Positions 9,985-59,918 of a stretch of 64,000 nucleotides of DNA are shown in pieces. Under the pieces are notes generated by a model. It was not told where the DNA came from. It did no database searches and worked only from the letters and a program-made list of their open reading frames with translations. The position numbers and the translations under genes are program-made. The stretch is from Mycolicibacterium sarraceniae (lineage in GTDB: Bacteria > Actinomycetota > Actinomycetes > Mycobacteriales > Mycobacteriaceae): the NCBI RefSeq assembly GCF_010731875.1, contig NZ_AP022595.1, forward strand, positions 1,674,001 to 1,738,000, written 5' to 3'. Positions within the stretch are counted from its first letter, which is position 1. Each line of letters begins with the position of its first letter.

Positions 9985-11889
9985 TTACTTCGGCTTGGTC
10001 AGGTCGTAGACATTGGTATCGCCGACCTGGGTGACCGCGAACGTCGTGGTGACCCAGTCGGTGATTCCGCTGTGGTTGCGATTGTCGGGCCACCCGCCGG
10101 GCTTGCCCCGCCAGTCGCGCTGAACCACGTAGTACGTCACCTGGCCGGCGGACACGTCCGCCTTGAACTGGCCAAGGCTCGGCACCGGGTCGGCGCCGGT
10201 GAACCCGCCGATGGCCATAACCGCGGTGCCGGAGGACAATTCGAGATTCGCCGCGGTCGATGAACCGACCGTCGCCGCCGACCACTTCGTCTTGGTGCCA
10301 CGCAACATCGTGTCCAATGCGGCGTTGTCCTCGGGCTGGTTGAAGGCCCGCACAAACGCAGGCTCGGCGCGCGCGGGCCCGACGGTGGGGCCACCACCGC
10401 GATGGGCTGCACCGAGCGTGGCCACCGCATAGGCCGTCGGGCCGGCCAGGACCGCGCTCACCCCGAGTGCGGCGGCAGCCACCGCCACCCGGCGCCGGCG
10501 CGGCGCAGACACCGCGAGTGCGCCGGCGGCGAGCACGGTGCCGATCAGGATGATCCACCGCAGGGCGGGCAACCACCCTTCGTTGCGGCCCAACACCCAC
10601 CAACTCCACACACCCGTCACCCCGACCAGGGCGGTCAGACCGATACGGCCGAATCGGGACTCGCGGCGCACCCACATCTCGTGGGCCCCGATCGCCACCA
10701 CGCCGGCCACCGCCGGTGCCAGCGACAGGCAGTAGTACGGGTGCACCTTGCCCTTCATGAAGCTCAGCACCAGGCCGTCGGCGAGCAGCCATCCGCCGAA
10801 CAACAGAGCACCGGCCCGCACCCGGTCGGTGCGCGGGGCCCGGCCGCGCGATACCAACACGAGAACGAAAGCGAGCAGCGCCGCTGGGACCAGCCAGGCG
10901 ATCTCGAAACCGAACTCGCCGGAGAACAGCCGGCTCAGTCCTTCGTTCTGGTCCATCCCGCCGAAGCCGCCGAGATGACTGAGCTGACTGCCCGCCGAGT
11001 TACCGATCGGATCGCTCGGTCCCATGCTCATGTGATTGCGGCCGGCCACCCGGGTGAAACCGTTGTAGCCCAGCACCAGATCCATGAAGCTGTTGTCGGT
11101 CGAGCCTGCGATGAAGGGCCGCGACGACGCCGGCCACACCACGGTGAGGACCACGAACCAGCCCGCCGACACCAGGAACGCGGCCATCGCGCCGAGCAGG
11201 TGCAGGATCCGCGCCCGCACCGTTGTCGGGGCCGCGATCAGGTAGACCAGCCCGACGGCCGGGACCACCAGGAGCCCTTCGAGCATCTTGGCCAGGAACG
11301 CGAAACCCAGGGCGACACCCGCCCAGGCCAGCCACTTGCCGCTGGCGCGCTCGAGTGCCCGTACCGTGCAGTACGCCGAGGCCATCATCAGCAGCACCAT
11401 CGCGGCGTCGGGGTTGTTGAACCGGAACATCAGCGCGGCCACCGGCGTGAGTGCCAGGGCAGCGCCCGCCAGCAGACCGGCCCGCGGGCCGCAGATGCGG
11501 GCCACCGCGGCGTAGAGCAGGGCAACCGTGGCCACCGCCATCAGCGCCTCGGGGATCAGCATGCTGGCGCTGCTGAAGCCGAACAGCTGACCGGAGAGCC
11601 CCATCACCCATTGCGACACCGGCGGTTTGTCGACGGTGATGAAGTTGGCCGAGTCGAGTGAGCCGAACAGCAGCGCTTCCCAGTTCTTGGAGCCAGCCTG
11701 CGCGGCACCGGCGTAGAACTGGTTTCCCATCCCGTTGACGGTGATGTTCCACAGGTACATGACCGCAGTGCCGACCAGTAGCACCACCAACCCGGCACGC
11801 TCCCATCGTGACGAGCGAGCCGGTGGTGTGGCGACCTCGGCGGAGTCCTGCGGCAGCGAGGCCTGACACGTCGTTGTCACATTCGCCAT
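9985..11889 (-). CDS. Polytopic glycosyltransferase (ArnT/PMT, GT39-like)
   Basis: A 634-residue membrane protein with about a dozen hydrophobic helices. The first periplasmic loop carries ITVDKPPVSQW, the acidic/DKPP element of PMT_2-type glycosyltransferases that use polyprenyl-phosphate sugars. The soluble C-terminal part (IGGFTGADPVPSLGQFKADV, then TYYVVQRDW) matches the extra domain of YkcB-like putative mannosyltransferases. It probably glycosylates a lipid or protein on the outer face; the acceptor is unknown. It lies 50 bp downstream of upp on the same strand and may be cotranscribed, although nothing links it to uracil use. Confidence 0.82.
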   Translation of the reverse strand: MANVTTTCQASLPQDSAEVATPPARSSRWERAGLVVLLVGTAVMYLWNITVNGMGNQFYAGAAQAGSKNWEALLFGSLDSANFITVDKPPVSQWVMGLSGQLFGFSSASMLIPEALMAVATVALLYAAVARICGPRAGLLAGAALALTPVAALMFRFNNPDAAMVLLMMASAYCTVRALERASGKWLAWAGVALGFAFLAKMLEGLLVVPAVGLVYLIAAPTTVRARILHLLGAMAAFLVSAGWFVVLTVVWPASSRPFIAGSTDNSFMDLVLGYNGFTRVAGRNHMSMGPSDPIGNSAGSQLSHLGGFGGMDQNEGLSRLFSGEFGFEIAWLVPAALLAFVLVLVSRGRAPRTDRVRAGALLFGGWLLADGLVLSFMKGKVHPYYCLSLAPAVAGVVAIGAHEMWVRRESRFGRIGLTALVGVTGVWSWWVLGRNEGWLPALRWIILIGTVLAAGALAVSAPRRRRVAVAAAALGVSAVLAGPTAYAVATLGAAHRGGGPTVGPARAEPAFVRAFNQPEDNAALDTMLRGTKTKWSAATVGSSTAANLELSSGTAVMAIGGFTGADPVPSLGQFKADVSAGQVTYYVVQRDWRGKPGGWPDNRNHSGITDWVTTTFAVTQVGDTNVYDLTKPK

Positions 11890-11939: not shown

Positions 11940-12569
11940 TCATTTGGTGCCGAACAGCCGATCCCCGGCATCGCCGAGGCCCGGCACGATGTAGCTCTGC
12001 TCGTCGAGGCCGCGGTCCACCGCCGCGGTGTAGATCGGCACCTCGGGATGGGCGTCGTGCAGTGCGGCGATGCCCTCCGGGCAGGTGAGTAGGCAGACGA
12101 ACTTGATGGACCGGGGCCGGAACTCTTTGAGCCGGTCGACCGCCGCGACGGCTGAGTTGCCGGTGGCCAGCATCGGGTCGACGACCACGACCTGGCGCTC
12201 GTGCAGGTCGCTGGGCATCTTGAAGTAGTACTCAACGGCGACAAGCGTTTTCGGATCCCGGTACAGGCCGATGTGGCCGATGCGTGCGCCCGGGACCACG
12301 GTCAGCATCCCGTCCAGGATGCCGGTTCCGGCCCGCAGGATCGAGACGAACACCAGCTTCTTGCCGTCAATGACGCTGCCGGCGGTGGTTTCCAGCGGGG
12401 TCCGCACCTCGATCTGGTGGGTCGGGGTGTCGCGTAGCACCTCGTAGGCGAGCAGCGTCGAGATCTCGTTGGCCAGGCGCCGAAACGTGTTGGTTGACGT
12501 CTCCTCGCGGCGCATCAGGGTCAGCTTGTGCTGCACCAGCGGGTGATCGATCACATGGATATCGCGCAT
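11940..12569 (-). CDS. upp: Uracil phosphoribosyltransferase
   Basis: Converts uracil and PRPP to UMP. The 209 residues match the usual length and show [12 protein letters not shown], the PRPP loop [16 protein letters not shown] and the C-terminal uracil-binding [16 protein letters not shown]. The ATG overlaps the stop of the DUF1688 gene (ATGA at 12569-12566 region), making it the last gene of urc1-urc4-upp. In the fungal URC pathway the phosphoribosyltransferase (Urc6) supplies the UMP that is then degraded, so here upp may serve catabolism as well as salvage. Confidence 0.95.
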
Positions 12570-13792
12570 CAGAACACCGTGCCATCACTGACGATCGACA
12601 GTGGCGGCAGGCCCCCGCGCAGCTGCTGGGCGAGCGTCCGGCCGGCTGCCCAGGTGCCGCCCTCCAGGATCCGCGCCAGCGGCATCTGCGCGGCGTCCAC
12701 CCCCAATTGTTCGCGGACCAGGGGGGCCAGCTCGTCCAGCAACGTCACCGTCAGTGCTCGCCACTCGACCACCAATTCATCTGGGGCGGTGAAAGTTCGG
12801 GCAGCGCTGCCGGGGTCTCGCAGTCTCAGCACACCGGTGTCGAGCAGCAGGCCGCCGTTGCGGTACTCGGGCAACCCGGTCAGTTCGTCGAGATCGGTCA
12901 CCGTGCGACCGGCCCAGCCGAAAGGCTCCAACAGCGAATAGGTTAACCACTGCGAGAGTTTGTGGAACGGCATCCAACCCGCGGTCAGGCCGGACCCGCG
13001 CAATGCCCTGTGCCGCCAGCAGTCGCCGATCGGCTGGTCACCGATCATGCTGCCGCCCGGCCAGATTGGGGCCAGCGCGCTCAGGATCACGGTGAGGATG
13101 TGGTGTGCCCGGACCTCGTCGCGGCCCGGTATGGGCACCGCGTCCAGTAACCCGGCCGGCCGGCCGTCGGTACCGAAGGTCTCCGGTGCGGCGGATAGCA
13201 CCGTACCCAGCCGGCGCAGGATCGCCACCCGGCCGTCGAGCCCGACCAGCGGGTTGGTGGCGCCGTTCTGGAATGCCGCACTGAGCTTCTCGGTGGTCAG
13301 GGCGGCCAGCCCGGCGGCGTCGGCGCGCAGCGGATCGCCGGGATCTGATGAGAACAAGCCTCCGGTGAACGCATGAAAGCTGGCCACCGCCAAGCCTTCC
13401 GAACGGCTCAGCCGAAGACACGTTCCCGGTTCGAGGTAAGACCAGGATGGGCCGGCGCCGGCGTCGAGCAGCACGCTGATCACAGTGAGATCGACCAGGG
13501 CCCGGGCATCGGCACCGGTGAGGAGACTTTTGCGGTCGACCCCACCGGCCTCGAAATGGCGCCACCGGCTGTGGAACGGGATCTGCAGGTCCGGATAGCT
13601 GTCCCGGGTGACCTCGGCGACCAGCGCCGCAGCGGACGCCAGCGCCTCGGCGTCAACGGTGAACCACGGAGACTCCCCGGCGCGAGCTCGCTCGGTCAAG
13701 AACCGAGCCCGCGCCCGCACGGCGCGCGTGCTGCGCAGTGCCGCGGTGGCGCCCGCCGGGGTGTCGGCGTCGACCTCGATAGCCGAACCCAT
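12569..13792 (-). CDS. URC4-like protein (DUF1688), uracil catabolism
   Basis: A 407-residue protein of the DUF1688 family, recognised by [42 protein letters not shown] and the closing [12 protein letters not shown] block. The fungal member Urc4 is required for uracil catabolism, downstream of ring opening; its exact reaction was not established as far as I know. The ATG at 13792 overlaps the urc1 stop (ATGA) and its own stop overlaps the upp start, so all three are translationally linked. There is no signal peptide or membrane segment, so it is probably cytosolic. Confidence 0.87.
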
Positions 13793-15045
13793 CAGCCCTC
13801 CAGTCCGCGGCCCTTGGCCTTCCTCAGCTCCTCGGCGTCGGGCACCGGGCCGGGCGTGAAGTAGCCGGCCGCCATTTTGGCGTCGATCTCCACCCGCGCA
13901 TCGGCCGGGATCAGCTCGTCGGGGATGTTGACGCGTTCGCTCACCTCGATCCCCGAGCCTACGATCGCGTCGTACTTCATATTGCTCATCGAGACCAGGC
14001 GATGGATCTTGCGAATCCCTAACCAGTGCAGTGCATCCGGCATCAGCTCTTGGAAACGCATGTCCTGGACGCCGGCAACGCATTCGGTGCGGGCGAAATA
14101 CGCCTCGGCGGTGTCGCCACCATCCTGACGCTTGCGGGCGTTGTAGACCAGGAACTTGGTCACCTCGCCCAGCGCGCGGCCCTCCTTGCGGGAGTAAGCC
14201 ACCAGTCCAACCCCGCCCCGTTGCGCACCGAGGATGCATTCCTCGATGGCATGGGTCAGATAGGGCCGGCACGTACAGATATCGGAGCCGAACACATCCG
14301 AGCCGTTGCACTCGTCATGCACCCGGGCGGTCAGTTCCACCGCAGGATCGGTGAGATCGTGTGCGGCGCCGAAGATATAGAGGGTCTGGCCACCGATCGG
14401 CGGAAGGAATACCGCAAGATCCGGGCGGGTGACCAATTCGGGGTACATACCGCCGGTCTCCTCGAACAACACGCGGCGCAAATGAGCCTCGCTGCAGCCG
14501 AACCGTTCTGCGACACCGGGCAGATACCAGACCGGTTCGATCGCGACCTTGGTCACCAGTGCCGCCCCACCGGACAGCAGCACCTGACCGTCGGGAACCA
14601 GCCGGCCCTTGTCGATGGCGTCGGCGACCTCCGGCAGGATCACGTGTGCCTTGGTCACTGCGATCGTCGGGCGGATGTCCTGGCCGTTGGCCAGGTCGGC
14701 GGCGAAGGCGTCAGCCACCATCGCGCCCCACGGGTCCAGGCTGACGATCGCCGTGGGATTGCCCCACTGCGGGTAGGGGCCGATGCTGTCGGTGGGGGAG
14801 GTATTGGTCAGGTCCGCGCGATGGTCGCGGGACAGGGCGCCGGCCGCGACGGCCAGCGCGCGATACACGCTGTAAGAGCCGCTGTGGGTGCCGATGACGT
14901 TACGGTGGCTGCGAGTGCTGGTGGTGCCGATCAGCGGTCCGCGCTCGCCTGCGGTGGCTGCGCCCCAGCTGATCGGCAGGGCGCCTTCGGCGCCGCGGTG
15001 CGATGTCAGCCGGATGTGCCCGGGGCCCTTCGGTGCGGCAGACAT
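13792..15045 (-). CDS. URC1-like GTP cyclohydrolase II homologue, uracil catabolism
   Basis: A 417-residue relative of RibA. The zinc ligands are Cys246, Cys257 and Cys259 (HDECNGSDVFGSDICTC), and YSRKEGRALGEVTKF corresponds to the RibA Y-R-EGRG catalytic loop, with A replacing a Gly. It has a long N-terminal extension (residues 1-200) without a DHBP synthase domain. That architecture and the adjacent DUF1688 and upp genes identify it as Urc1, thought to act on the pyrimidine ring of UMP rather than in riboflavin synthesis. A good ribosome binding site (GAGGAG) precedes ATG 15045. It is the first gene of the operon. Confidence 0.88.
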   Translation of the reverse strand: MSAAPKGPGHIRLTSHRGAEGALPISWGAATAGERGPLIGTTSTRSHRNVIGTHSGSYSVYRALAVAAGALSRDHRADLTNTSPTDSIGPYPQWGNPTAIVSLDPWGAMVADAFAADLANGQDIRPTIAVTKAHVILPEVADAIDKGRLVPDGQVLLSGGAALVTKVAIEPVWYLPGVAERFGCSEAHLRRVLFEETGGMYPELVTRPDLAVFLPPIGGQTLYIFGAAHDLTDPAVELTARVHDECNGSDVFGSDICTCRPYLTHAIEECILGAQRGGVGLVAYSRKEGRALGEVTKFLVYNARKRQDGGDTAEAYFARTECVAGVQDMRFQELMPDALHWLGIRKIHRLVSMSNMKYDAIVGSGIEVSERVNIPDELIPADARVEIDAKMAAGYFTPGPVPDAEELRKAKGRGLEG

Positions 15046-15542
15046 GTTTGCTCCTCTAATCCAGGAGATCCGGCGGTCGGCTGGGTGCCGACCCGCAGGA
15101 AAGGCGCAAGTTTAGTCATATTGCGCGGTGCGTGCCGGGAAGGAATGTAGCCGCGCTAAAGAACCCTGTTGGTAATCCCGTTCGCGACCCTCAGTGGGAG
15201 TCAGGTTTCACTCCGTTATGAAGCCATATCCGATGCGCGCGCCACTCACTGTACAGCGCAAATAAGAGACGGCCCAAAGCAAGCCGGATGTCTCCGCGGT
15301 CAAGAGAAACCCTCGACGTTGCGAAATGAAATGCGCCAGACGAACGATGTTTTCTGTGCTCATCGGCCGGAAAGCGCAGCTGATGGTGGATATCTTCACC
15401 GCGACTCAAGGCTGGCGATAATAGTTGGCTACGACTGTGGTTTTGGTATCGGCGTAGATGTTTCGCTACCGCGTAAACACTCTCGGCAGTCTGGGTGCGA
15501 GCGCCGATCAACGGCCCACGTTCTCTTGCCCGTGTCGAGCGC
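15046..15542. other. Gene-poor stretch of lower GC upstream of the URC operon
   Basis: No convincing gene was found on either strand in about 500 bp. Open frames here show no family motifs. The base composition is visibly more AT-rich than the flanks, with runs such as GAAATGAAATGC and GATAATAGTTGG. The first 150 bp should hold the urc1 promoter and leader. The rest may be old noncoding or acquired DNA. Confidence 0.5.
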
Positions 15543-16183
15543 TCACATCCCGAAGCGGGCGTTCCGTACGGCGTCGACGGCGGCCTGGGGTCCAGATACC
15601 GCCACTTGGGCTGCGGCCTGCCTGCCGAAGAGGTAGAGCAGTAGTTCGCCGGGCGAGCCGTTGAGCTCTGCAACGGGATCGCCTGTTCGGACAGTGATCC
15701 GTTGCTGGGTTCCCCTCCACACGATGTCGAGTCCGACTTCGTCGATCCGACGGCTCAAAAACCGGCTGCCGCGCTGGACGTTTCGCCAGAGGGCATTTTC
15801 CAGCGCGGGCGTCAGATCGTCACGAGGGCCCAGCCTGTTGGCTCGGCGGACGTCCTCATGGTGGACGAAGAACTCGCTGAGGCTCGCGAAGGACCGGACC
15901 CAGGGCACTCGGAAGAACCCCGGGGGGCCGGACTGGAGTCGTGCGACGAGCCAGCTGAATTAGCGGCGTTCGACCATGGCCGTCGTGCGGCGTTCTGCAA
16001 AACGTGCGGGAGGTCCAGGCAGGACGAGACATGGGGCAACGATCGGATCACGCTCGCGGAGCACGAGGTGGGCGTCAGTTTTCGGATTGTCCTTCCCTCG
16101 AGGAGGGGCGAAGCGCCCGTTCCGGATCGCCGCGACGGCGGCAGGTGGTGGGCGTCGAAGGTCTGCGCGGCGTCGTCACTCAA
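15543..16183 (-). pseudogene. TIGR03085/maleylpyruvate isomerase-like (DinB-fold) protein, frameshift plus nonsense
   Basis: The C-terminal half reads as a typical TIGR03085-type protein: SGPPGFFRVPWVRSF, EFFVHHEDVRRAN and PGELLLYLFGRQAAAQV. Upstream the same frame gives HLVLRERDPIVAPCLVLPG but is interrupted by a TAA at 15960-15962. Further upstream the N-terminal element LLEGRTIRKL, equivalent to the family's LCEGWTxRDL, lies in another frame, so about one base has been lost near 16075. Two independent lesions make this a decayed gene. Its probable TTG start overlaps the alcohol dehydrogenase stop, so it was once the last gene of that operon. Confidence 0.75.
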
Positions 16184-17220
16184 GGCTGGACGAGCACCCG
16201 GATTGGGTTGCCTTCGGCATGCTCGAGAATCCGGATCCCGTCCGCGATGTCTTCGAGCGGGATGATCTGACTGATCGAGCGCGACAGATCCAGCCGGCCG
16301 CGGGACACTAGCTGAGCCAGGGTTTCGATATCGGCGTTGTGGTAGCCGAGGTGGCCGAGCACCTGGCGTTGCACCAGATTGAACATCGACGTCGGCCCCA
16401 GGGTCGGTGTCTCGGCGCTCATACCGACCCCGACCAGCCGGCCGCCGATCGTCAGCGAATTCAGGGCCTGCTCGAAGGTGACTTTCAACCCGACCGCATC
16501 GAACGCGACATCCAGGTTCCGCCCGCCGGTTGCTTCAGCCAGCTTGTCGGCGAAATCGGGGTCGCGGGAATCGAATGCGTAATCGGCGCCGAGTTCCCGC
16601 GCGCGCTCGCGCACCGCCGGATTGATATCGACAGCGATCACGGGAACCGCGCCGACGAGGCGGGCCAGCTGCACGATGTGGGTCCCGACGCCGCCGACAC
16701 CCCACACCCCGACCGACTCACCGACGGCCACCTTGCCCGTATGGACCACCGCGCCGAACGGCGTCGATACCGCGTCGGCCAGGATCGCGGCCTGTTCCAG
16801 CGGCACATTGTCGGGCACCCGGGTCAGCCCCGAGGCCTGCGCGACGGTGTATTCGGCCCAGGCACCGTCATAAGCGAAGGCCATCAACTGGATTCGCATG
16901 CAGTTGGCCAGATCACCGCGCCGGCAGTTTGCGCACTTTCCGCACGGCCGCCCGGCCGCAACGACGACACGGTCATCTTCGGACCAGCCGGTGACGCCTG
17001 GGCCGAGCTTGGCGATGGTCCCCGAGGCTTCGTGTCCCTGAGTCACCACCGGGCGCTGTGCCGGAAAGGTGCCGTTGATCAGGCTCAGGTCGGAATGGCA
17101 GATACCGCAGAACGCCACCTGCACCAAGACTTCACCGTCACCCGGCTCGGGGATCGGAATATCCTCCAGTGCAACGGTTTTGGTGTCAGAATAGAAACGT
17201 TCAGCGCGCATCGTGGCCAT
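16180..17220 (-). CDS. Zinc-dependent alcohol dehydrogenase (MDR superfamily)
   Basis: A 346-residue NAD(P)-dependent alcohol dehydrogenase. The catalytic zinc site is CGICHSD with GHEASG, the structural zinc site is CGKCANCRRGDLANC, and the Rossmann motif is GVWGVGGVGTHIVQLA near residue 170. AVDINP gives the acidic residue that favours NAD. The substrate could be a primary or aromatic alcohol; sequence alone does not decide. It starts one base after the stop of the Mop-like mini-gene, so the two are probably cotranscribed. A second in-frame ATG lies at 17211. Confidence 0.9.
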   Translation of the reverse strand: MATMRAERFYSDTKTVALEDIPIPEPGDGEVLVQVAFCGICHSDLSLINGTFPAQRPVVTQGHEASGTIAKLGPGVTGWSEDDRVVVAAGRPCGKCANCRRGDLANCMRIQLMAFAYDGAWAEYTVAQASGLTRVPDNVPLEQAAILADAVSTPFGAVVHTGKVAVGESVGVWGVGGVGTHIVQLARLVGAVPVIAVDINPAVRERARELGADYAFDSRDPDFADKLAEATGGRNLDVAFDAVGLKVTFEQALNSLTIGGRLVGVGMSAETPTLGPTSMFNLVQRQVLGHLGYHNADIETLAQLVSRGRLDLSRSISQIIPLEDIADGIRILEHAEGNPIRVLVQP

Positions 17221-30761: not shown

Positions 30762-30828
30762 AATTCTCCGTTTATGTGGGTATGACACCGAATGCAATGT
30801 TGGTATGTGTTGTTTTACCCCTGTTCGT

Positions 30829-30857
30829 GTTGACTTGTCAACGAATCGTTGTAACCT
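30829..30857 (+). promoter_or_regulatory. ptsI promoter with overlapping palindrome; likely leaderless start
   Basis: A TTGACT -35 (30830-30835) and a TAACCT -10 (30852-30857) are separated by 16 bp. Transcription would begin near 30864, at the ATG of ptsI (30865), so the mRNA may be leaderless. The perfect inverted repeat GTTGAC-TT-GTCAAC (30829-30842) covers the -35 box and is a candidate binding site for the DeoR regulator. Confidence 0.6.
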
Positions 30858-30864
30858 AGTTCAC

Positions 30865-32562
30865 ATGCCCGCCTCATCCACACCTACCTCACTCGGTGCC
30901 GGACAGATCCTCGCCGGCGTACCTGTCGTCCCCGGCGTCCGCTACGCACCGGTGGTCCGCCCCGGCCGGCTCCCTGCCATCGACGATCTCGATCCCGGGG
31001 GTGAGCTCGCCGAAGACAAGCGCGATCACGAGGTGGCCAGATTCACCGCGGCGGCGGCCACGGTCGCCGGGCGGCTGCGGGAACGCGCCGCTAGTGCGAC
31101 TGGCGCCGCCTCGGAGGTGTTGGCCGCCACCGCGATGCTCGCGCAGGACCGTGCCTGGCTGGGCGCGGCGGAAAAACGCATCAAGGAAGGCTTCCCGGCA
31201 GTCCGTGCGACCGCTGCTGCGGTGGACCAGTTCGTTGACCTGTTCGCCAAGATGGGCGGGCTGATGGCCGAGCGCGTCACCGATCTGCGCGACATCCGGG
31301 ACCGAGTCGTCGCCGAACTCAGCGGCCTCGCCGAGCCCGGGGTGCCGGTGCCGGACCAGCCCGCCATCCTGTGCGCCGAGGATCTCGCACCCGCTGACAC
31401 CGCCGGGCTGGACCCCACCCTCGTCGTCGGCTTGGCCACCACGCTCGGTGGCCCGACCAGCCACACCGCGATCATCGCCCGCCAGCTGGGCATCCCGTGC
31501 GTCGTCGCGGTCCATGGTCTCGACGAGATCCCGGTCGGCACCGAAGTTTTGATCGACGGAACCCGCGGCACCCTCAGCGTCTCGCCCGACCCGGCCGAGG
31601 CCGCCGCGGCTGTCGACGCCGCCGCGGCCGCCGCCGCGGCGATGGCCGGCTGGACCGGCCCCGGGGCCACCGCCGACGGCCACCCGGTGTCGATCCTGGC
31701 CAATGTCCAGGACGGCTCGGCCGCCCGGTCGGCGCGGGAAACCCCGGCTGAAGGTATCGGGCTGTTCCGCACCGAACTGTGCTTTCTCAACCGCGACACC
31801 GAGCCCACGGTCGAGGAGCAGGCCTCGATCTACGGCGAGGTGCTCGACGCGTTCGCCGGTTGCAAGGTCGTCATCCGCACGCTGGACGCCGGATCCGACA
31901 AGCCGTTGAAGTTCGTCGGGCATCCCGACGAGGCCAACCCCGCACTCGGTGTGCGCGGGATCCGCATCGAGGCTCTTCACCCCGAGGTGCTCGAGCGTCA
32001 GCTCGACGCAATCGCGCTCGCGGCCGAGCGGACCGGCAGCGCGCCGTGGGTGATGGCGCCGATGATCGCCACTCCCGATGAGGCCAAACGGTTCGCCGAC
32101 CGGGCTCGTGAGCGGGGCCTAGTGCCCGGCGTGATGATCGAGGTTCCTGCCGCCGCGTTGCTGGCCGATCACATCCTGGCCCACGTGGAGTTCCTCTCGA
32201 TCGGCACCAACGACCTGGCCCAATACACGATGGCGGCCGACCGGATGTCCGCGGAACTGGCTACCCTCACCGATCCCTGGCAGCCCGGCGTGCTGGCGCT
32301 CGTCGCGCAGACCGCACGCGCCGGCGCCAATCGGGGCAAGCCGGTCGGAGTCTGTGGCGAGGCCGCCGCCGACCCGCTGCTGGCCTGCGTACTGGTCGGG
32401 CTCGGCGTCACCTCGCTGTCCGCGGCGGCGGCCGCCGTGACGGGCGTCGGCGCCAAACTCGCCTCGGTCACCCAGGCGCAATGCCGCGCCGCCGCCGAAG
32501 CGGTGTTGACCACCGCGAGCGCAGCCGAGGCCCGAGCGGCCGCACTCGCAGTCCTGGACTGA
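30865..32562 (+). CDS. ptsI: PTS enzyme I (phosphoenolpyruvate-protein phosphotransferase)
   Basis: A 565-residue enzyme I that takes phosphate from phosphoenolpyruvate and passes it to HPr. The phosphohistidine is His200 in GGPTSHTAIIARQLG. The PEP-binding barrel has GIGLFRTELCFLNR, the signature FLSIGTNDLAQYTMAADR and the catalytic cysteine region GVCGEAAADP. It is the only gene of its transcript before the convergent FUSC gene 5 bp downstream. Confidence 0.95.
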   Translation: MPASSTPTSLGAGQILAGVPVVPGVRYAPVVRPGRLPAIDDLDPGGELAEDKRDHEVARFTAAAATVAGRLRERAASATGAASEVLAATAMLAQDRAWLGAAEKRIKEGFPAVRATAAAVDQFVDLFAKMGGLMAERVTDLRDIRDRVVAELSGLAEPGVPVPDQPAILCAEDLAPADTAGLDPTLVVGLATTLGGPTSHTAIIARQLGIPCVVAVHGLDEIPVGTEVLIDGTRGTLSVSPDPAEAAAAVDAAAAAAAAMAGWTGPGATADGHPVSILANVQDGSAARSARETPAEGIGLFRTELCFLNRDTEPTVEEQASIYGEVLDAFAGCKVVIRTLDAGSDKPLKFVGHPDEANPALGVRGIRIEALHPEVLERQLDAIALAAERTGSAPWVMAPMIATPDEAKRFADRARERGLVPGVMIEVPAAALLADHILAHVEFLSIGTNDLAQYTMAADRMSAELATLTDPWQPGVLALVAQTARAGANRGKPVGVCGEAAADPLLACVLVGLGVTSLSAAAAAVTGVGAKLASVTQAQCRAAAEAVLTTASAAEARAAALAVLD

Positions 32563-41338: not shown

Positions 41339-42871
41339 TTAGCTCCTCGAGAACATCGCGAGCATGCGACGCGTCACCGCGAAGCCACCGAAGATGTTGA
41401 TACTGGCAAGCAGGATGGCGACAGCGGCCAATGCCGTGACGATGACGTCACCGTGACCGATCTGCAGCAGCGCGCCGACGACGATGATGCCGGAGATCGC
41501 GTTGGTCACCGACATCAGCGGCGTGTGCAGGGCGTGGTGCACATGGCCGATCACGTAGTAACCGATGACGATTGCGAGCGCGAACACCGTCAGGTGCACC
41601 TGCAGCGCTGCCGGGGACAACGCGATGAGCAGGAACAGCACCGCGGCAGCACCGAACGTGATGCCGAGCCGGCGGCCCATCGTCATCGGTTCTTTGACGT
41701 GCTGCACCGCGGGCGCGGCGGCCGCCGAGGCCGCAGGTGCCGCCGAGACCTGTACCGGTGGAGGCGGCCACGTCGTCTCGCCGTCGCGCACGACGGTCAC
41801 CGACCGTTGCACCACATCGTCGAAATCCAACGTCAGCACACCGTCTTTGGCTGGTGTGAGCAGTGTGAGCAGGTTGACCAGGTTGGTGCCGTAGAGCTGC
41901 GAGGCTTGGGTGGGCAGCCGGCCGGCCAGGTCGGTGTAGCCGATGATGGTGACGCCGTTGTCGGTCAAGACCGCCTGGTCTTTGACGGTGCCCTCGACGT
42001 TGCCGCCGTTGGCTGCGGCCATATCGACGATGACGCTGCCCGATTTCATCGAAGCGACCATGTCGGCGGTGATGATGCGCGGTGCGGGACGGCCGGGAAT
42101 CAGTGCCGTCGTGACGATGATGTCGACATCCTCGGACTGCTCGGCGTATAGCTGCGCCTCGCGGGCCTTGTAATCGTCACCCATCTCTTTGGCGTACCCG
42201 GTGGCCGATACCTCGGCTTCCGGCGACTCGATCGAAAGATACTCACCACCAAGGGATTTGACCTGATCGGCTACCTCGGGGCGTGGGTCGGTCGCACGCA
42301 CGATGGCGCCGAGGCTGCCGGCGGCGCCGATTGCTGCCAGACCCGCCACGCCGGCGCCGACCACCAACACCTTGGCCGGAGGAACCTTGCCCGCGGCGGT
42401 GACCTGTCCGGTGAAGAAGCGCCCGAACGCGTGCGCGGCCTCGATGACTGCGCGGTAGCCGGCGATATTGGCCATTGAGGACAGCACGTCCAGGGACTGG
42501 GCCCGCGAGATCCGTGGCACGGCGTCCATCGCCAGCACCGTGATCGGCCGGGTGGACAGCTCCTCGACGAGTTCGGGTTTCAGCGCGGGGGAGATCAGGC
42601 TGATCAGTGTCGCGCCGTCGCGCAGTGCTGCGATTTCGCTGCTGGTCGGCGCGTTGACCTTGAGGACGATGTCGGCGGCCAGCGTCTCGGTCGTCGACCC
42701 GATACCGGCACCGGCCTCGACGAATGCCTCATCGGAGAAGCTCGCCGCAACTCCAGCGCCGGATTCGACGAGCACGTCATAGCCGAGTTTGATGAGCTGC
42801 CCGACGGTCTGTGGTGTGGCGGCGACACGAGTCTCCCCCGGGAGAGACTCGCGTGGAATCCCGATGAGCAT
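41339..42871 (-). CDS. pntA: NAD(P) transhydrogenase subunit alpha, fused form
   Basis: A 510-residue alpha subunit that combines the NAD-binding domain I (starts [37 protein letters not shown] near residue 175) with the four-helix membrane domain II (from about residue 415: [15 protein letters not shown] to the end). As I recall, M. tuberculosis splits this into PntAa and PntAb; here it is one E. coli-like chain. ATG 42871 is preferred to the in-frame start at 43039, since homology begins there. Confidence 0.94.
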
Positions 42872-43086
42872 CGATGCGATCCGATCTGGTTGGTCCTGCC
42901 GAGGCCGGGTGGAAGATGCAAGTGTATGGAATGCCAGCATCCACCTGCGTTCCCCACCCGAGCGCGGTTGGCGGTGGCCTGAGATCCCGAGTCCGGACTG
43001 CGCGAGGCCAGACGCCACCTTCCCGCGAATTGACCGCACGCCGCGATCAGCGACGCTCCACCGCGGCGTGGGTGGCCGGTGTGGCG

Positions 43087-52469: not shown

Positions 52470-53339
52470 ATGAGTACCGCGACAGTCCTGCGCAGCCGCT
52501 ACCCGCGGGCGTATTCGAGGGCGAGCAAGTGGGCGGCCTCGCCGGGCCGCTTCATCGACCGGGTCGGTGACGTGGCGTGGTTCACCGTCACTGCCGTCGG
52601 CCAGATCCCGCATGCCCTGCGCTACTACCGCCGTGCGTTGCTGCGGTTGATCGCCGAGATCGGCATGGGCACCGGGGCGATGGCCGTTATCGGTGGCACC
52701 ATCGCCATCGTCGGCTTCGTGACCTTGTCGGGTGGTTCGCTGATCGCGATCCAGGGTTACGCCTCGCTGGGCAATATCGGCGTCGAGGCCTTCACCGGAT
52801 TCGTTGCGGCCCTGGTGAACGTCCGCGTCGTCGCACCCCTGGTCTCCGGACATGCCCTTGCCGCGACCGTGGGCGCGGGAGCAACCGCCGAACTGGGCGC
52901 CATGCGGATCAGTGAGGAGATCGACGCGCTTGAGGTGATGGGCATCAAGTCCATCAGCTACCTGGTGTCGACCCGCATCCTGGCCGGCATGGTCGTGATC
53001 ATTCCGCTGTACGCGATGGCGCTGTTGCTGTCATTCCTGGCCGCTCAGCTCACCACGACCGTGCTGTACGGCCAGTCGACGGGCACCTACGACCACTACT
53101 TCCGCACGTTCCTGCGGCCCGACGACGTGTTCTGGTCCTTCGTCGTCGCCATCATCATCGCCATGTTCGTGATGATCAACCACTGCTACTTCGGCTACAA
53201 CGCCAGCGGCGGTCCGGTCGGCGTGGGCGAGGCGGTCGGGATCTCCATGCGTGCTTCGCTGGTCGCCGTCGCGACCGTTGTTCTGTTGGCCTCGTTGGCG
53301 CTGTACGGCACCGACCCTAACTTCAACCTCACGGTGTAG
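52470..53339 (+). CDS. yrbE1B: Mce1 permease YrbE1B (MlaE family)
   Basis: A 289-residue second permease subunit. It has the same MlaE fold with the EEIDALEVMGIKSISYLVSTR coupling helix (centre EALEVMGIK-like segment near residue 150) and hydrophobic helices such as MVVIIPLYAMALLLSFLAA. An N-terminal basic extension precedes the first interfacial helix. ATG 52470 lies 2 bp after the yrbE1A stop; mce1A starts 4 bp after this gene. Confidence 0.93.
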   Translation: MSTATVLRSRYPRAYSRASKWAASPGRFIDRVGDVAWFTVTAVGQIPHALRYYRRALLRLIAEIGMGTGAMAVIGGTIAIVGFVTLSGGSLIAIQGYASLGNIGVEAFTGFVAALVNVRVVAPLVSGHALAATVGAGATAELGAMRISEEIDALEVMGIKSISYLVSTRILAGMVVIIPLYAMALLLSFLAAQLTTTVLYGQSTGTYDHYFRTFLRPDDVFWSFVVAIIIAMFVMINHCYFGYNASGGPVGVGEAVGISMRASLVAVATVVLLASLALYGTDPNFNLTV

Positions 53340-53343
53340 CCGC

Positions 53344-54555
53344 ATGCCCCAGCCGTTGAACGCTTCCCGGCGCCCGCCACTGAAGTTGGCGGGCGTGATC
53401 TTCCTCGTACTCGCCATCGTGTTGGTGACGTTGGTGTACCTGCAGTTCCGCGGTGACCTCACGCCGAAGACAACGCTCACCATGGTTTCCGATCGCGCCG
53501 GCCTGGTCATGGACCCGGGCTCGAAGGTCACCTACAACGGGGTCGAGATCGGTCGCGTCAGCAAGGTGGCCGCGGTGGATCGCGGCGGCAAGTCGGTCGC
53601 CGAACTCACCCTTCAGGTCGCCCCGCGCTACATCGCGCTGATCCCGGCCAATGTCGACGCTCAGATCAAGGCCAGCACGGTCTTCGGCAATAAGTACGTG
53701 TCCTTCACCAGCCCGAAGGACCCGACCACACAACGCATCTCGAGTGCGGACGTCATCGACGTTTCGCACGTCACGACGGAGTTCAACACGTTGTTCGAGA
53801 CGTTGACCTCGATCTCGGAGAAGGTCGATCCGGTCAAGCTGAACCTGACGCTGTCCGCGGCGGCCGAGGCGCTCGGCGGGCTGGGTGCCAAGTTCGGGCA
53901 GTCCCTCGTCAACGGCAATGCCGTCCTCGATGACATCAACCCGCAGCTGCCCCAGATCCGCACCAACATTCAGCAGCTGTCCAAACTGGCCGATGTCTAC
54001 ACCAAGGCCAGCCCGGACCTGTGGGACTTCCTCGATCACGCCGTCACCACCGCCCGCACGCTCAATGCGCAGCAGAAGGATCTCGACGCTGCGCTGTTGG
54101 CCTCGACCGGATTCGGCAACACCGGCGCCGATATCTTCGAACGCGGCGGCCCCTACTTCGTGCGCGGCCAAGCCGACCTGATCCCCACCGCCAAACTGCT
54201 CGACACCTACAGCCCGCAGCTGTACTGCCAGATCAAGGGCGAGGCGGAGGCGTTGCATCCGGCGCTGGATGCCTTTGGCGGCAACGGGTATTCGCTCGAC
54301 ACCATGATCGAACTAGTAGGCGCCCCTAACCCGTACGTCTACCCCGACAACCTGCCCAGGGTCAACGGCCGCGGCGGCCCCGGCGGTGCTCCCGGCTGCT
54401 GGCAGAAGATTGACCGCAACTTCTGGCCCGCGCCGCATCTGGTGGTCGATGACGGTGCATCCCTGGCCCCGTACAACCACTTCGAACTCGGCCAACCGAT
54501 CCTCACCGAATACGTGTGGGGACGCCAAGTCGGGGAGAACACGATCAACCCATGA
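53344..54555 (+). CDS. mce1A: Mce1A substrate-binding MCE protein
   Basis: A 403-residue protein with one N-terminal membrane anchor (LAGVIFLVLAIVLVTLVYL), the MCE/MlaD domain at about 40-120 (DRAGLVMDPGSKVTYNGVEIG) and a long helical region thought to form part of the lipid tunnel. It is shorter at the C-terminus than M. tuberculosis Mce1A, about 454 residues as I recall. Its TGA overlaps the ATG of mce1B (ATGA). Confidence 0.94.
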   Translation: MPQPLNASRRPPLKLAGVIFLVLAIVLVTLVYLQFRGDLTPKTTLTMVSDRAGLVMDPGSKVTYNGVEIGRVSKVAAVDRGGKSVAELTLQVAPRYIALIPANVDAQIKASTVFGNKYVSFTSPKDPTTQRISSADVIDVSHVTTEFNTLFETLTSISEKVDPVKLNLTLSAAAEALGGLGAKFGQSLVNGNAVLDDINPQLPQIRTNIQQLSKLADVYTKASPDLWDFLDHAVTTARTLNAQQKDLDAALLASTGFGNTGADIFERGGPYFVRGQADLIPTAKLLDTYSPQLYCQIKGEAEALHPALDAFGGNGYSLDTMIELVGAPNPYVYPDNLPRVNGRGGPGGAPGCWQKIDRNFWPAPHLVVDDGASLAPYNHFELGQPILTEYVWGRQVGENTINP

Positions 54556-55592
54556 AAATCACCGGCACAGCAATCAAACTCGGGGCATTCTCACTGGTGC
54601 TCCTGCTCTTCACGGCGATCATCATCATCGTGTTCGGGCAGTTCCGATTCGACCGAACGACCGCGTATACCGCCGAATTCAGCAATGCCAGTGGTTTGCG
54701 TGATGGCCAGTTCGTCCGTGCTGGTGGTGTCGAGGTAGGCAAGGTGTCCGACATCAAGCTCGTCGGCAACGGCGATCGTGTTCAGGTCACGCTCAACGTC
54801 GATCGCACCCTGCCCCTCTACCAGTCGACGACGGCTCAGATCCGATACCAGGACCTGATCGGCAACCGCTATGTCAACCTCGACCGCGGCACCGGCGAAG
54901 GCGCGGACCGGATTCTGCCTGGAGGCGGCTTCATTCCGATGTCGCGCACTCAGCCCGCGCTGGATCTCGACGCGCTCATCGGTGGCTTCAAGCCGCTGTT
55001 CAAATCGTTGGACCCGCAGAAGGTCAACACCATCGCCTCGTCGCTCATCACCGTTTTCCAGGGGCAAGGCGGCACTATCAACGACATTCTGGATCAGACG
55101 GCTCAGCTGACGTCCGCGCTGGCCGACCGGGATCAGGCCATCGGCGAGGTGATCACGAACCTGAACACCGTGCTGGACACCACCGTCAAGCATGAGAAGG
55201 ACTTCGACCAGACGGTCAACAACTTCGAGATTCTCATCACCGGGTTGAAGAATCGCGCCGACCCGCTGGCCTCTGCCGCTGCCAGTATCAGCAGTGCCGC
55301 GGGCACTTTGAGCGATCTGCTGGCCGATAACCGCCCGCAGCTCAAGGACACACTGGCCAAGGTCGAAACCATCCAGCTGCCGCTGGCCGACGGTCAGGAC
55401 CGCCTCGACGATCTGCTGACCAAGATGCCGGTGGCCGTGAAGATGATCGGTCGCGCCGGTGGTATCTACGGCGACTTCTTCAACTTCTACCTCTGCGACA
55501 TCAACCTGAAGCTCAACGGCCTGCAGCCCGGTGGCCCGGTCCGCACCGTGAAGATCACTCAGCAGCCCACGGGTAGGTGCACGCCGCAATGA
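54552..55592 (+). CDS. mce1B: Mce1B MCE protein
   Basis: A 346-residue MCE protein: N-terminal anchor (LGAFSLVLLLFTAIIIIVF), MCE domain NASGLRDGQFVRAGGVEVGKV, then helices ending in two cysteines near the C-terminus (YLCDINLKL and RCTPQ). It begins at ATG 54552 within the mce1A stop and its own stop overlaps the mce1C start, so stoichiometric expression is likely. Confidence 0.94.
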   Translation: MKITGTAIKLGAFSLVLLLFTAIIIIVFGQFRFDRTTAYTAEFSNASGLRDGQFVRAGGVEVGKVSDIKLVGNGDRVQVTLNVDRTLPLYQSTTAQIRYQDLIGNRYVNLDRGTGEGADRILPGGGFIPMSRTQPALDLDALIGGFKPLFKSLDPQKVNTIASSLITVFQGQGGTINDILDQTAQLTSALADRDQAIGEVITNLNTVLDTTVKHEKDFDQTVNNFEILITGLKNRADPLASAAASISSAAGTLSDLLADNRPQLKDTLAKVETIQLPLADGQDRLDDLLTKMPVAVKMIGRAGGIYGDFFNFYLCDINLKLNGLQPGGPVRTVKITQQPTGRCTPQ

Positions 55593-57142
55593 GGACGCTA
55601 GAGACGCCTAACCGGATCAAGAACGGCCTGGCCGGCATCGTCATCATCGTGCTGGTCGTCACTGTGGGGCAGAGCTTTTCGGGTATCCCGCAGCTGTTCG
55701 CCCAGCCGACGTACTACGGCCAGTTCACCGACAGCGCGGGCCTGAATGCCGGCGACAAAGTGCGCATCGCCGGCATGGATGTCGGCGAAGTGAAGTCGCT
55801 GAAGATCGACGGCGATCACGTCTTGATCGGATTTAACTTGGGCCCCAGGCAGATTGGCACCGAGAGCCGGGTGTCCATCCGCACCGAGACGATCTTGGGC
55901 AAGCGGGTGCTCGAAATCGAGCCGCGGGGCAGCAAGCTGCTCCAGGCGAGATCGGTCCTGCCGGTGGGCCAGACCACCACGCCCTACCAGATCTACGACG
56001 CCGTCTTCGACGTGACGAAGGCCGCGGCGGGCTGGGACATCGACAGCGTCAAGCAGTCGCTGAACGTGTTGTCGGAGACCATTGATCAGACCTATCCGCA
56101 CCTGAGTGCGGCACTGGACGGGGTGGCCCGGTTCTCCGACACCATCGGTAAGCGTGACGAGCAGTTCAAGCAACTGCTGGCCAATGCGAACCAAGTCGCT
56201 GCCGTGCTGGGCAACCGCAGTGAGCAGATCAATCGGCTTGCCGTCAACGCCCAAACGCTGCTGGCCGCCGTCAACGAGCGTCGTTCCGAGATCGACTATC
56301 TGCTGGCCAACGTTTCCGCGCTCTCCGAGCAGTTCACCGGATTCATCAACGACAATCCGAACCTGAATCATGTTCTGGAGCAGCTGAAGACGATCAGCGA
56401 TGTGCTGGTGAAGCACAAGACGGACCTGTCCGATGTGCTGATCACCGCCTCGAAATTCATGGGCGCACTGGCCGAGGCCATCGGCTCGGGCCCGTACTTC
56501 AAGGTGCTGGTGGTCAACCTGGTGCCTTACCAGATCCTGCAGCCGTGGGTGGACGCCGCATTCAAGAAGCGCGGTATCGACCCCGAACAGTTCTGGCGCA
56601 GCGCGGGTCTGCCGGCGTTCAAGTTCCCCGATCCCAACGGGCAGCGCCAGCCGAACGGCGCCCCGCCGCCGGCCCCGCTCCCGCTTGAGGGCACACCGGA
56701 CCATCCGGGACCCGCAGTGGGCCCGGGCTCGCCATGCTCGTACACCCCAGCCGCGGACGGTATTCCGACGCCGGGTAACCCGTTGCCGTGTGCCACGCTG
56801 ACCGACGGTCCGTTCGGCCCAGCGCCGGGTGGCTACCCGCCGCCGGACGTGCCGATTTCGGCGTACAACCCCGCCGCCGTCGGCGGCCCGGGTGTCCCGA
56901 GTGCGGCCTTCCCCGGCGAGCTTTCACCGAATGTGCAAGGTGTGCCTGCGCCGCCGCTGGCACCCGGTCCGCCGGGAGCCCGTACCGTCCCGGTCGCACC
57001 CACGCCGGGACCGGCCACCGATATCCCCGGCTACGCCCCACCGCCGAACGCGCTCATCGGACCGATCCCGCCGCCGGGACCGGGCCCGCAGGTCCCGCCG
57101 GTCGGTAACCTGGCACCCGTCGATCAGGGAGGGGGAGCGTAA
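55589..57142 (+). CDS. mce1C: Mce1C MCE protein with proline-rich tail
   Basis: A 517-residue MCE protein. The anchor is GIVIIVLVVTVGQSFSGI, the MCE domain starts at DSAGLNAGDKVRIAGMDVGEV, and a helical segment follows to about residue 360. The last 150 residues are a Pro/Gly/Ala-rich tail (for example APPPAPLPLEG, PAPPLAPGPPG), probably extended in the cell envelope. ATG 55589 overlaps the mce1B stop. Confidence 0.94.
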   Translation: MRTLETPNRIKNGLAGIVIIVLVVTVGQSFSGIPQLFAQPTYYGQFTDSAGLNAGDKVRIAGMDVGEVKSLKIDGDHVLIGFNLGPRQIGTESRVSIRTETILGKRVLEIEPRGSKLLQARSVLPVGQTTTPYQIYDAVFDVTKAAAGWDIDSVKQSLNVLSETIDQTYPHLSAALDGVARFSDTIGKRDEQFKQLLANANQVAAVLGNRSEQINRLAVNAQTLLAAVNERRSEIDYLLANVSALSEQFTGFINDNPNLNHVLEQLKTISDVLVKHKTDLSDVLITASKFMGALAEAIGSGPYFKVLVVNLVPYQILQPWVDAAFKKRGIDPEQFWRSAGLPAFKFPDPNGQRQPNGAPPPAPLPLEGTPDHPGPAVGPGSPCSYTPAADGIPTPGNPLPCATLTDGPFGPAPGGYPPPDVPISAYNPAAVGGPGVPSAAFPGELSPNVQGVPAPPLAPGPPGARTVPVAPTPGPATDIPGYAPPPNALIGPIPPPGPGPQVPPVGNLAPVDQGGGA

Positions 57143-57145
57143 GCG

Positions 57146-58750
57146 ATGTCGACAGTCTTCAGTGTCCGTAACCTGGGCCTGCCCAAGATGTCTCGGGCGT
57201 CCGTCATCATCGGCACCCTCGTGGTGATCGTCGCGGTGTTCGCCGCATTCGGCGGTTACTACCTGTACAAGAAGCTGACCACCAACACCGTGGTGGCGTA
57301 TTTCCCCGAAGCGCTGGCGCTGTATCCCGGTGACCGGGTCCAAATCATGGGCGTGCAGGTCGGCAAGATCGAGAGCATCGAGCCGGCCGGCGACAAAATG
57401 AAGGTCACCTTCAATTATCAGAACCGGTACAAGGTTCCGGCGAATGCCACCGCCACGATCCTCAACCCCAGCCTGGTCGCCTCCCGGGTGATCCAGCTCG
57501 CACCGCCCTACAGCGGCGGTCCGGTGATGGAGAACAACGCCGTCATCCCGATCGATCGCACCCAGGTGCCGGTGGAATGGGATGACCTGCGCAACCAGAT
57601 CTCCGATATCGTCACCAAACTCGGCCCGACGCCCGATCAGCCCAAGGGCCCGTTCGGTGACGTCCTGGAGTCGTTCGCCAACGGACTCGAGGGCAAGGGC
57701 GAACAGATCAACACCACCTTCAAGGCGCTATCCAATGCGGTGACCGCGCTGAACGAAGGCCGCGGCGACTTCTTCGGCGTGCTCAAGAGCCTGGCCCTGT
57801 TCGTCAACGCCTTGCACAAGAGCGATCAGCAGCTGGTGTCGCTGAACAACAACCTCGCCACCTTCACCAACTCGTTCTCCAACTCCGATCAGGAAGTGGC
57901 CAAGGCGGTCAAGGACATTGACACGCTGTTGACCACGGCGCGCAAGTTCGTCAACGACAACGGTTCGGTGCTGAGCAAGGACATCAACAACCTGTCCGAC
58001 GTCACCACCCAGGTCTTGCAGCCGGAATCGCGCGACGGCCTGGAGACGGTGTTGCACGTCTACCCCAACCTGGCCGCCAACCTGCAGAACATCTATCACC
58101 CGACACACGGTGCGCTGGTGGCGATTCCGACGATCGCCAGCTTCGCCAACCCGCTGCAGTTCATCTGTAGCGCGATCCAGTCCGGCAGCCGGTTGGGCTA
58201 CCAGGACTCGGCGGAGATGTGCGCGGAGTACCTCGCGCCGATCATGGACGCGATCAAGTTCAACTTCCCGCCGTTCGGCGTCAACCAGTTCTCGACGGCT
58301 GAGACGCTGCCGAAGTACATCGCCTACTCCGAGCCGCGGCTGCAGCCACCCCCGGGCTACAAGGACACGACGGTGCCCGGTATCTGGTCGCGGGACACGT
58401 TGTTCTCGCACGGCAATCACGAGCAGGGCTGGATCGTGGCACCGGGCATGCAGGGTGTGGACGTGCAGGCGTTCACCGCCAACATGCTCACCCCGGATTC
58501 GCTCGCCGCGTTGATGGGCGGACCGGACCCGGTCGACTATCCGCCGGGTGGCCCGCGCGGTGGCGCACCGTCGAACTCCTATGACCAGAACAACCCGTTG
58601 CCGCCGCCGTGGTACCCGGGTGCGATCCCGCCGCCACCGCCTGGGCCGAACGTGATCCCCGGACCGTTGCCGGTCTCGCAGCAGATCAACGGTGGTGCTC
58701 CGGCGCCCGCCGGTCCGGCATTGCCGGCTGAAGCGGGAGGCGGTCAGTGA
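57146..58750 (+). CDS. mce1D: Mce1D MCE protein
   Basis: A 534-residue MCE protein with anchor ASVIIGTLVVIVAVFAAFGG, MCE domain (LYPGDRVQIMGVQVGKIESI) at about 50-125 and a central coiled helical part. The final 70 residues are proline-rich (PLPPPWYPGAIPPPPPG). It starts 3 bp after mce1C and ends in a GTGA overlap with mce1E. Confidence 0.94.
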   Translation: MSTVFSVRNLGLPKMSRASVIIGTLVVIVAVFAAFGGYYLYKKLTTNTVVAYFPEALALYPGDRVQIMGVQVGKIESIEPAGDKMKVTFNYQNRYKVPANATATILNPSLVASRVIQLAPPYSGGPVMENNAVIPIDRTQVPVEWDDLRNQISDIVTKLGPTPDQPKGPFGDVLESFANGLEGKGEQINTTFKALSNAVTALNEGRGDFFGVLKSLALFVNALHKSDQQLVSLNNNLATFTNSFSNSDQEVAKAVKDIDTLLTTARKFVNDNGSVLSKDINNLSDVTTQVLQPESRDGLETVLHVYPNLAANLQNIYHPTHGALVAIPTIASFANPLQFICSAIQSGSRLGYQDSAEMCAEYLAPIMDAIKFNFPPFGVNQFSTAETLPKYIAYSEPRLQPPPGYKDTTVPGIWSRDTLFSHGNHEQGWIVAPGMQGVDVQAFTANMLTPDSLAALMGGPDPVDYPPGGPRGGAPSNSYDQNNPLPPPWYPGAIPPPPPGPNVIPGPLPVSQQINGGAPAPAGPALPAEAGGGQ

Positions 58751-59904
58751 GTGCCATCGTGACCACCACCCGCCGATACGGCTGGCGTGGGTTCGTCCTG
58801 CTGATGACGGCGCTGGTGCTGACGTCCTGCGGCTGGCGCGGTATCGCGAACGTGCCGATGCCGGGCGGTCCTGGTAGCGGCAGGGACAAGATGACGATCT
58901 ACGTCCAGATGCCGGACACGTTGGCGCTCAATGTCAACAGTCGGGTTCGGGTTGCTGACGTGTTCGTGGGCTCGGTGCGTGCCATCGAGCTCAAGAACTG
59001 GATCCCGACCCTCACGCTCGATCTGGAACCCGGAATCAAGCTGCCCGCCAACGCCATTGCGCGGATCGGACAGACCAGCCTCCTGGGAACCCAGCACGTC
59101 GAGCTCAATCCGCCGCCGAATCCGTCGTCCGAGCCGTTGCGCAACGGCGCGACGATCCCGCTGAAGAACTCCCAGTCGTTCCCGACGACTGAACGCACCT
59201 TGGCGAGTATCGCCACCGTGCTGCGCGGCGGCGGCATCCCGAACCTGGAGATCATCCAGACCGAGGTCTCCAACATTCTCGACGGCAACGCCGGGCAAAT
59301 CCGCGACTTCCTGGGAAAGCTGAACACGTTTACCGATCAACTCAACCAGCAGCGTGACGACCTGACCCGGGCGATCGACAAGACCAACGAACTGGTGTCT
59401 ATCGTGGCTGCGCGTAACGCGACTCTGGACCGCGTGCTGACCGAATTCCCGCCGCTGATCAAGTATTTCGCGGATGCCAGGGACCGGTTCACCGGTGCGG
59501 TCGAGGCACTCGGCCGGTTCAGCGCGATCACCGATCAGACGTTGTCGCAGTCGCGTGCTGATTTCGACACCAACCTGGCGCTGTTGCAGCGCCCGCTCAA
59601 GCAGCTCGGTCGGGCCGCACCGTATCTGATCGACTCGCTGAAGCTTGTCATCACGGCGCCGTACCCGATCGACAACATCCCGAAGGTCATTCGTGGCGAC
59701 TACATCAACACCTCAGCCACCTTCGACCTGACGCTGAGCTCGATCGATAACGCGTTCCTCACCGGAACCGGAGTCTCGGGAATGCTGCGCGCCCTCGAGC
59801 AGGCATGGGGCCGTGATCCGCAGACGATGATTCCGGACGTCCGGTTCACGCCCCACCCGAACATGACCGACGGTGGCGGACCGTTTGTCGAGCGCGGCGA
59901 GTAG
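58747..59904 (+). CDS. mce1E: Mce1E lipoprotein (LprK)
   Basis: A 385-residue MCE lipoprotein. The signal peptide ends in the lipobox LTSC with Cys28 as the acylated residue, so it would be tethered to the outer side of the membrane rather than by a helix. The MCE domain includes NVNSRVRVADVFVGSVRAIEL. Start GTG 58747 overlaps the mce1D stop. It is the single lipoprotein of the six Mce proteins, as is usual. Confidence 0.94.
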   Translation: MSAIVTTTRRYGWRGFVLLMTALVLTSCGWRGIANVPMPGGPGSGRDKMTIYVQMPDTLALNVNSRVRVADVFVGSVRAIELKNWIPTLTLDLEPGIKLPANAIARIGQTSLLGTQHVELNPPPNPSSEPLRNGATIPLKNSQSFPTTERTLASIATVLRGGGIPNLEIIQTEVSNILDGNAGQIRDFLGKLNTFTDQLNQQRDDLTRAIDKTNELVSIVAARNATLDRVLTEFPPLIKYFADARDRFTGAVEALGRFSAITDQTLSQSRADFDTNLALLQRPLKQLGRAAPYLIDSLKLVITAPYPIDNIPKVIRGDYINTSATFDLTLSSIDNAFLTGTGVSGMLRALEQAWGRDPQTMIPDVRFTPHPNMTDGGGPFVERGE

Positions 59905-59918
59905 GGGGTGACGGATAG

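Follow-up and report, generated by a model that had tools for sequence, protein, structure and literature searches.

Four pyrimidine-degradation routes are named in the literature, and the uracil-catabolic URC route is among them. The closest described systems are the URC genes of Lachancea kluyveri (URC1, URC4, URC6) and the urg genes of Schizosaccharomyces pombe, in which counterparts of Urc1, Urc4 and uracil phosphoribosyltransferase (UPRT) are likewise found together. According to PMC7530994, L. kluyveri URC4 degrades ribosylurea to urea, and PMC3869809 shows that URC genes were already known in bacteria. We analysed a 64,000-nt stretch of Mycolicibacterium sarraceniae DNA (the window), which carries on its minus strand, at 11940-15045, three intact genes transcribed in the order urc1, urc4 (a DUF1688 gene) and upp. 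These genes probably form a chromosomal URC operon for the use of uracil as a nitrogen source, by a five-step route from UPRT to urease. We also favour, with less confidence, the view that DUF1688/Urc4 is a second branch of Qng1-type nucleotide nucleosidases, with bare urea in place of queuine and Glu in place of Asp, and that it is the missing urea-releasing enzyme of URC in bacteria and fungi. As in L. kluyveri and S. pombe, uracil is predicted here to yield urea and a C3 product. In contrast to both, the window has a compact three-gene bacterial operon with no urea amidolyase or zinc-cluster regulator linked to it, and urease is the likely last step.

The three-gene locus and the proposed route

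The sequence-only reading of the window had described a RibA-like gene, a DUF1688 gene and a UPRT gene, and open reading frames (ORFs) together with Pfam assignments at E≤0.001 confirmed all three. The ATGA overlaps it had placed at the two junctions were misread: both junctions read CTGATG. The features are as follows.

13792-15045, minus strand: urc1/urcA, GTP-cyclohydrolase-II-like protein of 417 aa with a GTP_CH_N domain, predicted UTP cyclohydrolase (Pfam PF12471 and PF00925; homology to PDB 7EJ3/7EEV)
12569-13792, minus strand: urc4 (DUF1688, URC4/urg3 family), 407 aa, predicted Qng1-like nucleotide N-glycosidase (PF07958; AlphaFold2 model; VIA, Foldseek and hhalign)
11940-12569, minus strand: URC-linked upp paralogue, uracil phosphoribosyltransferase, 209 aa (PF14681, TIGR01091)
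13792, minus strand: one-base TGATG overlap of the urc1 stop and urc4 start
12569, minus strand: one-base TGATG overlap of the urc4 stop and upp start
15051-15057, minus strand: ribosome-binding-site-like AGAGGAG before urc1 (AGGAG-like block conserved in 20 aligned upstream regions)
15109-15114, minus strand: −10-like hexamer TAAACT, candidate promoter element within the best conserved upstream block

When 20 upstream regions were aligned, the window's own included, a TAnnCT-like block and an AGGAG-type ribosome site were both conserved upstream of urc1, and the TAAACT block may function as a promoter. The coding status of all three genes is secure. When urc1, urc4 and upp were compared with seven other loci, nonsynonymous divergence (dN) was 0.02-0.28 and synonymous divergence (dS) 0.39-1.22, with dN below dS in every comparison of gene and locus. 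A scan of named genome contigs matched at least 596 stretches, at least 569 of them confirmed relatives, and the best 80 were kept for analysis. The sequence-only reading had proposed looking for the triplet in relatives, and urc1-urc4-upp was found in the same order and strand in all 80 loci, although in one (L049) a contig end cuts urc1. These loci span Mycobacterium/Mycolicibacterium, Rhodococcus, Gordonia, Aldersonia, Antrihabitans and Burkholderiales such as Variovorax and Polaromonas. The locus is not a product of chance, because dN is below dS throughout and the triplet is present in every one of the nearest loci kept.

Within the genus, PF07958 was found in 72 of 198 genomes and PF12471 in the identical 72, as confirmed by comparing the two sets; in one genome (G028) urc4 is split across two contigs. 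In a sample of 396 genomes from the phylum, DUF1688 turned up in 6. Three of these belong to the genus, the window's own genome among them; a fourth is of the same family, and the remaining two are of a different family. Plasmids also carry urc4 (13 of 72,556 records). The whole triplet was seen in the three annotated plasmid records examined and, in a fourth that is unannotated, was read from ORFs. No viral copy was confirmed among 40 pattern matches. The URC triplet is not peculiar to the M. sarraceniae strain. As far as sequence comparison can tell, homology, co-occurrence and gene order all speak for the claim that the genes are counterparts of Urc1, Urc4 and Urc6 in a URC-type operon.

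The analysis shows which genes are present, their order and co-occurrence, their homology, and the correspondence of predicted fold and active site; from this we infer each reaction of the pathway in M. sarraceniae. The operon's own UPRT (Upp) would join uracil and phosphoribosyl pyrophosphate to give uridine monophosphate (UMP), which housekeeping kinases would convert to uridine triphosphate (UTP). Urc1/UrcA would then open the ring by two hydrolytic steps, in which a C3 unit is split off and ribosylurea phosphate remains. Urc4, with the Qng1 fold, which is like that of helix-hairpin-helix (HhH) DNA glycosylases, would hydrolyse the N-glycosidic bond between ribose and urea, releasing urea and ribose phosphate, probably by means of E309 in place of Qng1 D231 together with K278. 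A urease encoded elsewhere in the genome would finally convert urea to ammonia.

Urc1 and the probable ring-opening substrate

Urc1 matched PF12471 with 264.8 bits and PF00925 with 56.1 bits, and no DHBP-synthase domain was matched in it by Pfam at the same threshold. It aligns end to end, over 415 residues and with 777 bits, with the chains of PDB entries 7EJ3 and 7EEV, which we take to be the published UrcA structures and which were compared by sequence. A Rhodococcus wratislaviensis protein agrees with these chains at all but 2 of 409 positions, and the window Urc1 is identical to that protein at 341 of 409 residues (83%). In an alignment with E. coli GTP cyclohydrolase II (GCH II; 2bz0), C246, C257 and C259 of Urc1 fall on the zinc ligands C54, C65 and C67, and the 7EJ3/7EEV chains have the same ligands. 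Y301 and R330 fall on Y105 and R128, catalytic residues of the E. coli enzyme. Three zinc cysteines without a DHBP synthase domain, as the first reading had it, are thus what Urc1 contains. Urc1 shares the catalytic zinc domain and the Tyr and Arg positions with RibA/RibBA, but its N-terminus is GTP_CH_N rather than DHBP synthase, it scores far below the RibA model cut-offs and its gene is linked to upp and urc4.

The existing names would make Urc1 a second GCH II in a GTP-handling or riboflavin-related operon: NCBIfam PRK07198 (787 bits against Urc1) and PDB entries 7EEV/7EJ3 are both called GTP cyclohydrolase II, and the zinc and catalytic residues are kept. We consider this highly improbable. 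The RibA model TIGR00505 gave 47.1 bits against a cut-off of 205.85. In each of the genus's 72 URC genomes, and in each of the 80 best loci, urc1 is found together with upp and urc4, and the M. sarraceniae genome encodes another, separate GCH II domain (250.8 bits) at a different place. The riboflavin reading was rejected on the low TIGR00505 score and the separate domain, the latter speaking against the riboflavin role that the first reading had named as its possible refutation. The characterised Urc1 relative, UrcA, carries the name UTP cyclohydrolase in the literature, and UTP is therefore likelier than UMP as the ring-opening substrate. The suggestion that upp feeds UMP into ring opening is consequently upheld as regards degradation by URC but needs amendment as regards the nucleotide that is opened.

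Urc4 and its proposed relation to Qng1

The window Urc4 matched PF07958 with 465.3 bits, and the NCBI name for proteins of its type is already URC4/urg3 family. Its AlphaFold2 model has a confidence (pLDDT) of 95.4, and this predicted model matches the Qng1 fold across the whole chain in VIA and Foldseek. Comparison of profiles by hhalign likewise pairs DUF1688 with Q_salvage (PF10343). It was only by profile-profile and fold comparison that the relation was revealed, sequence searches of the PDB having given nothing credible: a first search with DUF1688 found no match. Qng1 (DUF2419/Q_salvage) is a queuosine-5′-phosphate nucleosidase, whereas Urc4 sits in a uracil operon, is some 60-90 residues longer than the solved Qng1 chains and has 16-23% identity to them.

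Titles of PDB entries name the Qng1 variants D231N, with queuosine-5′-monophosphate bound, and K199C. Counted along an alignment, with an inferred shift of 3 from chain index to residue number, D231 and K199 correspond to D205 and K173 of the protein at locus L134. All four hhalign settings aligned D231 with Urc4 E309 and K199 with K278. For D298 and W302, which PMC11592518 describes as active-site residues of Qng1, three of the four settings gave a pairing: W302 paired with W381 in all three, and D298 with E377 in two and A373 in one. Across 115 DUF1688 members, position 309 is Glu in 115, position 278 Lys in 114, position 381 Trp in 115 and position 377 Glu in 103. The active-site layout of Qng1 thus appears largely kept in Urc4, with a conserved change of Asp to Glu, and catalytic roles may be assigned to E309 and K278. 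A Qng1-type nucleotide N-glycosidase is proposed for Urc4 because the step from ribosylurea to urea needs such an activity.

Several observations weigh against this assignment. Urc4 scored 11.7 bits (E 0.19) against PF10343, under the gathering cut-off of 25, and 83 of the 115 members did not match that model at E≤1. The DUF1688 sequence profile found no relative in the PDB, where it gave two chance matches (E 1.4 and 1.5). The catalytic Asp of Qng1 (D231) is replaced by Glu, so that the chemistry may differ. In addition, the primary Qng1 substrate is a monophosphate, according to the literature, whereas that of UrcA is UTP, and a phosphate-removal step may be missing from the route. It is conceivable, though unlikely, that the URC reading is right and Urc4, with its Qng1-like fold, acts on another bond or nucleotide, such as an earlier ureido intermediate, or only binds. 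The Asp-to-Glu change and the low PF10343 score fit such a role, and a common fold does not show function. The near-complete conservation of E309, K278 and W381 and the degradation of ribosylurea to urea by L. kluyveri URC4 argue against it, and we continue to prefer a nucleosidase that releases urea.

The DUF1688 and Q_salvage branches coexist in one genome: an Euzebya-type actinobacterium (G451; loci L128 and L136) has both a DUF1688 protein and a true Q_salvage protein. The link between Urc4 and Qng1 was not found in the literature searched, outside which most subscription papers lie, so that it may exist in print.

The second upp, urease and flanking genes

The URC-linked upp matched PF14681 with 256.8 bits and TIGR01091 with 267.8 bits, over the cut-off of the latter. 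A second UPRT gene, at G000:C1:434225-434839, is 43% identical to it (TIGR01091, 247.6 bits) and adjoins a gene with four phosphoglucomutase/phosphomannomutase domains, the arrangement of pmmB Rv3308/upp Rv3309c in M. tuberculosis. Since the second upp stands beside a phosphomannomutase-family gene, the upp of the URC operon is a paralogue in its own right rather than a re-used upp of the M. tuberculosis type, and its loss therefore need not affect salvage. UPRTs are present in all 198 genus genomes. The 72 top-scoring ones (at least 234.6 bits; the next among the matches listed, 225.6) are those of the 72 URC genomes, and each shares a contig with urc4, the starts at most 1273 bases apart (72/72). 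In most organisms upp alone is a salvage enzyme, and by that token the operon might serve uracil salvage only, with upp recovering UMP and its neighbours modulating it without ring degradation. The separate upp of another type in the genome and the absence of any URC-type upp without urc1 and urc4 among the 198 genomes leave very little room for this explanation.

Of 154 candidate ORFs at 40 of the 80 loci, a neighbour scan covered 106; the ORFs were chosen by length, some are spurious, and 25 of 65 families were listed. No listed family occurred in more than 3 of the 106 ORFs, and the scan tied to the operon no gene that would deal with the C3 unit. In the window, a YkcB-like mannosyltransferase (PMT_2 and YkcB_C; 9985-11889, minus strand) begins some 50 bases downstream from the end of upp, in the same orientation. 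A Zn-dependent alcohol dehydrogenase (16180-17220, minus strand) lies upstream of the operon, and an alcohol dehydrogenase of the same domains lies upstream in locus L045; it could act on the C3 product. Membership of the operon found no support for either gene, as neighbour families are not recurrent in the loci sampled. In Cupriavidus metallidurans CH34 (L133, 11078-13107) the genes beyond the operon encode a TetR protein, nearest to RutR at 193 bits (below the cut-off of 368), and a cytosine deaminase (822 bits), which suggests a regulator similar to the one in the Rut pathway. On an Azospirillum plasmid the operon is followed by genes for a BMP-type ABC transporter and, again, a cytosine deaminase (805 bits).

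Urease alpha was matched in the M. sarraceniae genome at G000:C1:3834138-3834509 (E 2.8e-51). Strong urease matches occurred in 72 of 72 genus genomes with URC and in 68 of 126 without it (Fisher p 7e-15); any match occurred in 161 genomes, of which 21 at E 5.7e-5 or weaker were counted as negative, and the tool's own cut-off passes 152 of 198. The control gene narI was negatively associated with URC (22/72 against 89/126, p 6e-8, one weak match dropped), which probably marks a lineage split within the genus. We do not rely on the urease association, because this control shows that lineage alone yields such p-values. Three points here tell against the operon serving uracil degradation: the confounding of urease by lineage, the lack of a recurrent pyrimidine gene among the sampled flanking genes, and the lack of a Xan_ur_permease match in the M. 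sarraceniae genome.

Elsewhere in the window are part of an mce operon (53251-61484, plus strand; MlaD in three of three scanned proteins, Mce4_CUP1 also in two), a phosphotransferase system (PTS) enzyme I-like protein with three PEP-utilising-enzyme domains (30805-32562, plus strand), and a chain with alanine dehydrogenase/transhydrogenase domains and a C-terminal 4TM region (41339-43039, minus strand).

A uracil operon that includes a upp of its own is present in many mycobacteria (72 of the 198 sampled); in the M. sarraceniae genome this upp is distinct from the second one. The protein to which the release of urea in URC is ascribed, DUF1688, is listed as a domain of unknown function in the Pfam version used. 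The tie to Qng1 would supply it with a fold, a catalytic hypothesis and named residues, by which its function becomes directly testable.
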